Source: Lunatimonas salinarum
GTDB lineage: Bacteria > Bacteroidota > Bacteroidia > Cytophagales > Cyclobacteriaceae
NCBI RefSeq assembly: GCF_017811155.1
Contig: NZ_JACVCV010000009.1
Span: forward strand, 1-64,000
Length of the DNA stretch: 64,000 nucleotides
Reading direction: 5' to 3'
Shown here: positions 3,214 to 43,923 of the stretch, piece after piece
Position numbering within the stretch: the first letter of the stretch is position 1
Layout: each line of letters starts with the position of its first letter
Made by a program: the position numbers and the translations under genes
The notes under the pieces: model-generated
Seen by the model: only the letters and a program-made list of their open reading frames with translations
Database searches by the model: none
What the model was told of the DNA's origin: nothing

Positions 3214-3674
3214 AATCTGTTTTAATGACGTTGATGGTGTTGGTCCTGAGCAGGTATGTACCTGCTCAGGATTATTGGTTGGATTTTGAGCAACTGGAGG
3301 ATTCACTTCGGGCTAATCCAAAGCCGGTATTCCTCTATTTCCAAACCGATTGGTGCTCTTATTGTCGAAAGATGGAAGCCGAGGTGTTTACCAAAGAGAT
3401 CATCTCTACAGAACTTTCGGAGCATTATTATGCGGTGAAGTTTGATGCCGAATATCCGGAAGATGTGCTGTTTGACGGGAAGCGTTTTTCAAATCGGAAT
3501 TTAAAAAAATCGAGAACTCCCTTTCATGATATCGCCCTGTTATTTAGCGGAGAGCAAAAGGCATTCGCCCCTCCTCTCATCATTCTATTGGATGAGCGAT
3601 TTTTTATAAGAAAAAAAATTAATTCTTATTTGGATTCCAAGTCACTGTATACATTGTTATCGTCGCATAGGTAG
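3210..3674 (+). CDS. Secreted thioredoxin-fold protein (CxxC)
   Basis: The 154-residue protein has a short signal peptide (cleavage near the PAQ at residues 18-20) and a thioredoxin-like domain. Its redox motif is WCSYC (about residues 48-52), followed by KMEAEVF as in the DUF255/thioredoxin_7 group. The cis-proline region is PPLIILLD (about 127-134). It probably acts as a periplasmic thiol reductase or disulphide handler. ATG 3210 overlaps the receptor's TGA by four bases, so translation is likely coupled and the two products probably work together. One possibility is keeping the CQNC pair of the receptor, or a metal-binding partner, reduced. The partner is inference; the fold and coupling are visible. 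Confidence 0.8.
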   Translation: MKSVLMTLMVLVLSRYVPAQDYWLDFEQLEDSLRANPKPVFLYFQTDWCSYCRKMEAEVFTKEIISTELSEHYYAVKFDAEYPEDVLFDGKRFSNRNLKKSRTPFHDIALLFSGEQKAFAPPLIILLDERFFIRKKINSYLDSKSLYTLLSSHR

Positions 3675-14737: not shown

Positions 14738-14776
14738 AAAAGCCAAGTAAGTTTTCTTTAACTTACTTGGCTTTTT
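14738..14776 (+). terminator. Rho-independent terminator after the HAE1-RND operon
   Basis: Perfect 14-bp arms (AAAAGCCAAGTAAG at 14738-14751 and its complement at 14762-14775) enclose a 10-base loop, with A-rich upstream and T-rich downstream ends. It separates the drug pump operon from the two-component genes. Confidence 0.9.
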
Positions 14777-43377: not shown

Positions 43378-43414
43378 GGTTTATTTAATGCAACAATGTT
43401 GCATTAAATAAACC
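43378..43414. promoter_or_regulatory. 37-bp perfect palindrome (candidate metalloregulator operator)
   Basis: Two perfect 18-base arms (left arm GGTTTATTTAATGCAACA, 43378-43395) surround a single central A at 43396. The core TGCAACA-A-TGTTGCA contains the promoter's -33 TTG (43399-43401), so a bound protein would block RNA polymerase. No T-tract or coding function explains it; a hairpin terminator is unlikely because the transcript starts downstream. Fur/Zur-family operators are AT-rich palindromes of similar size, so a metalloregulator is the leading inference. Confidence 0.75.
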
Positions 43415-43428
43415 TTTAGCTATCTTTG
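43399..43428 (+). promoter_or_regulatory. Promoter of the periplasmic CxxC protein
   Basis: TTG at 43399-43401 and TATCTTTG at 43421-43428 fit the Bacteroidota consensus exactly with a 19-bp spacer. The expected start near 43435 leaves about 30 bases of leader before ATG 43465. Confidence 0.7.
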
Positions 43429-43464: not shown

Positions 43465-43923
43465 ATGCATAAAAAGGTAATATTGTTTATGCTCCTTTTT
43501 TGGGGAGCATTGTCCGTTTTGGGCCAATCTCCCAACACCGCTAACCTTTGGGGCGTTTTTGGACAGACGCGTTTTGTAGAAAAACTAAATAGAGAGCACA
43601 ACTTATACTATTTGTATCCGACCTTTCAGCAGTCGCTTAGGGATTTGGAAGGCAAAGAACTGGTGCTATCAGGTTTTTATATACCGCTGGAGGTAGGTCC
43701 AACCGAAGCACTTATCCTTTCCAAATTTCCTATGGCAGAATGCTTTTTTTGCGGTCAATCTGGTCCAGAAAGTGTTGCTGTGGTGTATTTAAAAGAAAAA
43801 TCTTCAAAGAGATTGAAGATGGATCAAATAATTACGGTAAAGGGCACGCTAATACTGAATGAGTCGGATGTAAACGAGCTATGCTTTATCCTAAAAGAGG
43901 CAAAAATAATCGGATATGAATAA
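43465..43923 (+). CDS. Periplasmic protein with CxxC motif, DUF3299-like
   Basis: The 152-residue protein starts at ATG 43465, which opens a signal peptide (MHKKVILFMLLFWGALSVLGQ). The core reads like an OB-type domain: LEGKELVLSGFYIPLEV (key part SGFYIPLE), then FPMAECFFCGQSGPESVAVVY with a CFFC motif (about residues 93-96), and ITVKGTLILN. The layout resembles DUF3299-type lipoproteins that carry a metal- or redox-active Cys pair; the assignment is by pattern and uncertain. The 37-bp operator over its promoter implies tight control, plausibly by metal status. It is monocistronic. Confidence 0.65.
   Translation: MHKKVILFMLLFWGALSVLGQSPNTANLWGVFGQTRFVEKLNREHNLYYLYPTFQQSLRDLEGKELVLSGFYIPLEVGPTEALILSKFPMAECFFCGQSGPESVAVVYLKEKSSKRLKMDQIITVKGTLILNESDVNELCFILKEAKIIGYE

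Follow-up and report, generated by a model that had tools for sequence, protein, structure and literature searches.

The DNA analysed here, a stretch of 64,000 nucleotides from Lunatimonas salinarum (hereafter the window), contains a long perfect palindrome that lies directly on the promoter of a gene for a predicted secreted protein with a CFFC motif. The locus raises the questions of which part of the palindrome serves as operator, which protein binds there, and to what signal that protein responds. A sequence-only reading had proposed a site for a Fur/Zur-like dimeric metalloregulator. On the comparisons described below, we consider it very probable that a Zur-type zinc repressor, the product of a gene termed F3, acts on the central 15 bp to block RNA polymerase and that zinc starvation releases this block; zinc is favoured over iron as the signal.

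Palindrome and promoter

The palindrome occupies positions 43378-43414 (37 bp, assigned to neither strand), with arms at 43378-43395 and 43397-43414 about a central A at 43396, and an inverted-repeat search returned exactly the 18-bp arms that the sequence-only reading had described. That reading gave the span as 43378-43428, of which the start stands, whilst the palindrome itself ends at 43414 and the extension to 43428 takes in the -7 promoter element. This is the longest perfect inverted repeat in the window (loop of 8 or less), and in 15 surrogates generated from the window by a first-order Markov model the arms never exceeded 11 bp, as against the 18 bp observed, so that a repeat of this length is beyond chance. 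Two more perfect inverted repeats in the window, at 14738-14775 (16-bp arms) and 3244-3271 (13-bp arms), also exceed the 15 surrogates.

Bacteroidota promoters typically carry TTG near -33 and TAnnTTTG near -7, separated by a gap of 19 bp. On the forward strand of the window, a TTG at 43399-43401 lies within the right half-site and is followed, after exactly 19 bp, by TATCTTTG at 43421-43428, an element of the TAnnTTTG type; both elements and the gap can be read directly, as had been claimed, and the window promoter thus has all three features of a Bacteroidota housekeeping promoter. The portion of the palindrome that is conserved among relatives is the core TGCAACAATGTTGCA at 43389-43403 (neither strand), a putative Zur-type box of 7-1-7 form. 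Accordingly, the earlier proposal of an operator holds as regards a palindromic site on the promoter, with the conserved unit being the central 15 bp and not all 37 bp.

Conservation at orthologous loci

The controlled gene begins at an ATG at 43465, runs to 43923 on the forward strand and encodes a 152-aa predicted secreted OB-fold protein, the nearest named records to which come from a Lunatimonas MAG (72% identity) and L. lonarensis (63%). This protein was used to search 98 genomes, including the 5.46-Mb genome to which the window belongs, of which 52 matched at E 0.001. In all 16 loci at identities of at least 49% (L020-L035, L020 being the window), a box with at most 2 changes is present immediately upstream of the gene. 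Addition of 13 named loci, five of which duplicated members of this set, gave 24 distinct orthologous loci, and the box is found upstream of the gene in 22 of these, being absent from L071 and L075. Amongst 14 lower-identity loci that were fetched (L036-L049, 47% or less), two (L041 and L046) contain an exact box, within 3.4 kb.

The promoter geometry is likewise preserved at 16 of the 22 orthologous sites, where TAnnTTTG starts 31-35 nt from the start of the site; it is missing at L024, L026, L027, L073, L076 and L077, with a near miss in the first three. The retention of site, spacing and gene while the flanking DNA differs is the pattern characteristic of a promoter-borne operator, and the preserved position of the promoter is consistent with the earlier suggestion that a bound repressor would exclude RNA polymerase. 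A COG0523 GTPase is encoded by the adjoining downstream gene, in the same orientation and at a gap of -25 to +8 nt, at 13 of the 24 loci; L032 is cut off by the end of its contig, and the other ten loci, L071 and L075 among them, have a different neighbour.

Sites in related genomes and candidate regulon

A scan of the genome and its relatives for the motif had been suggested by the sequence-only reading, and sites were found to recur before zinc genes. The relaxed pattern TGCAAYNNNRTTGCA, scanned in 16 genomes that were chosen by their CFFC gene, gave 78 matches as against 3 for a reversed-pattern control (a control of different composition; totals summed by hand). With identical contexts counted once and two matches in G032 left out, these comprise 74 distinct sites, of which 62 flank recurrent gene families (30 of 31 for the strict pattern), whilst of the other 12, six are flanked by RuvB and ApbE genes, four are inside ORFs and two are elsewhere. 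As the seed families were picked from the same list of sites, the figure of 62 out of 74 measures recurrence, and it is from what the target genes encode that the connection with zinc is drawn.

The families at the 62 sites, with a single site sometimes counting for two, are the CFFC protein (15, ascertained), COG0523 proteins of two kinds (12), MerC-like proteins (7), DUF4625 proteins (7), an ESEWIRL lipoprotein (6), a small lipoprotein often beside ZIP (5), TonB receptors (5), ZIP transporters (4), MogA-like proteins (3), FAD oxidoreductases (3), HisI (1) and a P-type ATPase (1). Profile searches identified cobW/CobW_C, ZIP, HisI (PRA-CH; a HisI paralogue), TonB plug, MerC and DUF4625 among the targets; the COG0523 target scored 534 bits against the ZigA model without reaching its cut-off of 600, and is hence termed ZigA-like. 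In the Lunatimonas salinarum genome itself the box, or a variant with one or two changes, is present at the CFFC gene and at genes for a ZigA-like GTPase (C144), a ZIP transporter (C89), a lipoprotein (C100) and a DUF4625 protein (C78). Palindromic boxes are thus found at zinc genes; the check for overlap between box and promoter covered the CFFC gene, where 16 of the 22 sites show it. The MogA-like gene, the P-type ATPase and the RuvB/ApbE pair are no obvious zinc-uptake targets.

Matches with one or two mismatches in the same genome also include chance sites, which were set aside: L008 is intragenic and L011 looks like a hairpin followed by a T-run. The palindrome between the RuvB and ApbE genes, TGCAAY-N3-RTTGCA, occurs in six genomes (L111, L114, L115, L116 and L122, near 4001; L126, near 1897) and, having no evident zinc link, may be a different type of site. 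Three loci of one relative, G044 (L084, L085 and L088), share the start of a TonB-receptor gene, as far as it was printed, together with the operator, and perhaps represent recent multiplication of a zinc-regulated receptor. In another relative, G001, an ORF that by eye resembles Cas9 (L092:5658-8015) starts ~800 bp past a box-bearing ZIP gene.

Candidate regulator

The sequence-only reading had placed the regulator outside the window, and the F3 gene is indeed located on a different contig of the same genome (C155:226377). F3 is one of three Fur-family genes in this genome, and its product matches the Fur-family fold (PF01475, E 5e-10, 41.6 bits, cut-off 23.1); F1 and F2 also exceed the Pfam cut-off and are nearer than F3 to Fur models. 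The best sequence matches of F3 in the PDB are M. tuberculosis FurB/Zur (1.7e-6), a Fur (2.7e-6) and, third, E. coli Zur (4.9e-5). Against the NCBI Zur model F3 scores 38.8 bits, and slightly higher (39.3) against a Fur model; the cut-off of 167 for the NCBIfam Zur equivalog is the curated threshold of one model rather than a trait of every Zur, and on this score we term F3 Zur-type and not a curated equivalog.

Orthologues of F3 are present in all 16 genomes (15 relatives and its own), and each contains HKV, [YF]ALC and two CxxC motifs (counted by script in 15 genomes and, for L168, from its printed sequence). These motifs align to His77, Cys88 and the structural zinc site A of E. coli Zur (4mtd), Cys88 being named in PMC4219657 as the B-site residue that is best conserved across Zur proteins. 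In the same alignment F3 has a His at or near His96, and the position of Glu111 falls in or beside a gap. The Zur-type Cys motif occurs in none of 15 F1-type and none of 13 F2-type proteins; the string HKV is also present in three of the 15 F1-type proteins.

The distribution of F3 follows that of the site. Of 118 genomes of the family, 105 encode F3 or a relative (E 1e-10, a level that includes relatives of 30-45% identity) and 87 have the strict site, the latter occurring in 85 of the 105 genomes with F3 as against two of the 13 without (G025 and G148, one each; Fisher P 4.7e-6, with shared ancestry ignored). The strict box is absent from 20 of the 105 F3-bearing genomes. In six of 15 relatives (L170-L173, L175 and L178) the distance between the F3 and CFFC genes is 6-9 kb, and inspection of the 16 F3 loci revealed no box preceding F3 itself. 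In a sample of the phylum the exact site is found in nine of 198 genomes, its own included, and in three of the eight others an F3-like gene (34-37% identity) adjoins the site or is one gene away: the site lies between F3-like and MerC genes in L214, between F3-like and ZIP genes in L215, and one gene before an F3-like gene in L212. In G313 (L210 and L218) the exact site precedes regulon members known from the family; beside the exact sites of L211, L213, L216 and L217 there was no match to the seed families, and the L219 site is 38 bp from L216. Separately, at L109:3580-6089 an F3-like gene is found directly before a gene for a His-rich P-type ATPase; a weak site marks the point where the two meet, and this pair is possibly an efflux counterpart.

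Alternative explanations

The identity of the regulator could be read otherwise. The 7-1-7 form is not exclusive to Zur, as Fur and PerR proteins also use such palindromes, and the site might serve a Fur-family protein that senses iron or manganese, i.e. the Fur/PerR-like F1 or F2, which surpass the Pfam cut-off and stand closer than F3 to Fur models. Yet 12 of the 13 genomes without F3 retain another Fur-family protein whilst 11 of these 13 do not have the strict site, and this failure of other Fur-family proteins to track the site argues against an iron-sensing Fur; moreover, the targets include ZIP, ZigA-like GTPases and HisI, all 28 F1/F2-type proteins are without the Zur-type Cys motif, and it is F3-like genes, not F1 or F2, that stand beside the site in three other genomes. 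We therefore judge control by F1 or F2 to be very unlikely. Symmetry by itself names no regulator, so that a homodimeric repressor of another family (e.g. TetR or MerR), the regulon of which holds metal genes incidentally, might be invoked; co-occurrence of the site with F3-like genes, their proximity to it and a Zur-like set of targets make this scarcely credible.

A different question is posed by the length of the arms. The view that the operator spans all 37 bp was rejected, as the symmetry of the flanks across 84 sites is near that given by composition: over the 11 positions beyond the 15-mer the mean symmetry is 0.44, compared with 0.41 for shuffled flanks (P 0.018), and in 45 of the 84 sites no symmetric base adjoins the 15-mer, which is retained nonetheless. 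In three of the 84 sites at least 11 further bases are symmetric, as against 0.05 such sites expected from between-site pairs, these outliers being the window site, its orthologue in the sister species (L021) and L120. Such an excess, together with arms that are perfect to 18 bp and with flank letters in the sister species that differ from those of the window, as they would in a selected hairpin, could suggest that the palindrome is an RNA or cruciform hairpin (an attenuator or bidirectional terminator) rather than a protein-binding site. Against this, the palindrome is upstream of the -7 element and hence no part of the CFFC transcript, a terminator search at the site gave no terminator-like match, and the 15-mer is kept at the many sites without adjoining symmetry; we regard a hairpin as extremely improbable. 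Either a mutation process that corrects palindromes or additional contacts made by the repressor could account for the extended arms.

Proposed mechanism

From the Zur-type ligands of F3, the zinc-gene regulon and the co-occurrence of F3 with the site, all of which accord with the metalloregulator site first proposed, together with the position of the core on the promoter, we infer binding, zinc dependence and repression by F3. When zinc is sufficient, a zinc-loaded F3 dimer would occupy TGCAACANTGTTGCA and cover the -33 element, rendering the promoter unusable by RNA polymerase. When zinc is short, F3 would lose its zinc and depart, and the CFFC protein would be made. The ZigA-like GTPase would be released together with it (in most relatives from the same operon, in the genome studied here from a box of its own), as would the ZIP transporter and periplasmic or outer-membrane proteins from further box-bearing loci.

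The CFFC motif noted by the sequence-only reading is encoded at 43741-43752 on the forward strand (Cys93 and Cys96) and is invariant across 14 aligned orthologues, and the N-terminus of the protein appears, by eye, to be signal-like. Remote likeness was found to DUF3299 (ZrgE), DUF1980_C/DUF1980 and TIGR03943, all under curated cut-offs; the score against DUF3299 is 12.1 bits where Pfam sets 22, and we do not count the protein as a member. Its AlphaFold model is mostly beta (mean pLDDT 82.6), and a fold search of the PDB with this model returned nothing at E 0.001 and weak matches only (best 6.5e-3), to proteins that we take to have OB folds; as these matches are weak, we assign to the CFFC protein a fold only and no function. 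The earlier expectation that the operator controls a metal-handling protein is in keeping with a box shared with zinc genes and with a co-operonic ZigA-like GTPase at 13 of the 24 loci. Most likely, the CFFC protein would handle zinc or pass it on in the periplasm, or keep thiols reduced there, and the DUF3299 subunit of Zrg transporters may act likewise in this compartment. A paralogue in the same genome, which has no Pfam match at E 0.01, sits in an ATPase-FtsX permease-CFFC operon (L135), with no box within the 8.3 kb read.

Candidate leader RNA in relatives

The mRNA leader starts with a stem at 14 of the 24 orthologous loci, followed by GGUUGACA (except in L025) and then by a terminator-like hairpin. 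It is a candidate structured RNA in the 5' leader of the CFFC gene, located at L029:1401-1482 (forward strand), with equivalents in L023-L027, L030-L033, L035, L072, L078 and L079. A model was built from ten of the 14 rows, L023, L024, L025 and L078 having been misplaced by MAFFT and dropped beforehand, and it recovers all four omitted rows. In the ten loci, eight of 17 pairs are changed on both sides (seven in the second stem, one in the first); the covariation score was matched by none of 500 shuffles, whilst the count of further pair types was no better than shuffled (275/500). Over the 118 family genomes the model finds 22 places in 21 genomes, and the CFFC gene follows the match in each of the 14 strong cases (at least 76 bits) and in four of the eight weak ones. 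In the nine loci scanned against Rfam, eight of which have the leader, no family reached its gathering score, and the model has no match in the window or its two genus mates. For the window site, too, an RNA element was considered and rejected, the one Rfam match (snoRNA, E 0.99) being under gathering score and not overlapping the palindrome.

As a speculation that we think rather unlikely as it stands, the CFFC protein and its ZigA-like partner might form the core of an undescribed Bacteroidota zinc-delivery route, gated twice in many relatives, by the Zur-type operator and by a new leader RNA that senses zinc or a zinc-linked signal, with the RNA missing from the Lunatimonas lineage, of whose three genomes two have the extended palindrome instead.

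Comparison with known systems

The Zur operator is, as a kind of thing, already known. The 7-1-7 form is one of the listed forms of Zur box (PMC6103462), Zur site profiles of Actinobacteria, Bacilli and Proteobacteria have been used (PMC3087516), and putative Zur sites precede genes for COG0523 zinc chaperones (Haas et al. 2009, PMC2770081); of the taxon names looked for in the last of these papers, Cytophaga appears only in a UreG table, and Bacteroides and Flavobacteri- are absent. We found no operator, regulator or regulon of a Bacteroidota zinc repressor in the open-licence PMC literature searched, including passages of PMC2770081, PMC6103462, PMC9817125, PMC9976891 and PMC3087516. For this phylum the analysis supplies a concrete operator sequence, a candidate regulator and a list of targets, all immediately testable, and it places proteins of unknown function (the CFFC OB-fold protein, DUF4625, the MerC-like protein and two lipoprotein families) in the putative response to zinc starvation.

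Like Zur of E. coli and B. subtilis, F3 is a Fur-family protein with two CxxC motifs and equivalents of Cys88 and His77, and, as in Zur regulons, a palindromic box is found at promoters of COG0523, ZIP, HisI-like and TonB genes. It differs in scoring far under the cut-off of the NCBI Zur model, and its box, TGCAACANTGTTGCA, differs both from the motif quoted in PMC6103462 and from the putative Zur site of V. parahaemolyticus, TGAGTGTTATATTATAACACCCG, named in PMC9817125. The latter paper describes the V. parahaemolyticus ZrgABCDE operon as Zur-repressed, with ZrgE a DUF3299 protein. Whereas the window gene adjoins no transporter, and a COG0523 GTPase gene is next to its orthologues at 13 of the 24 loci, the CFFC paralogue of the same genome resembles the Vibrio ZrgABCDE zinc transporter in its operon with an ATPase and an FtsX permease (L135).
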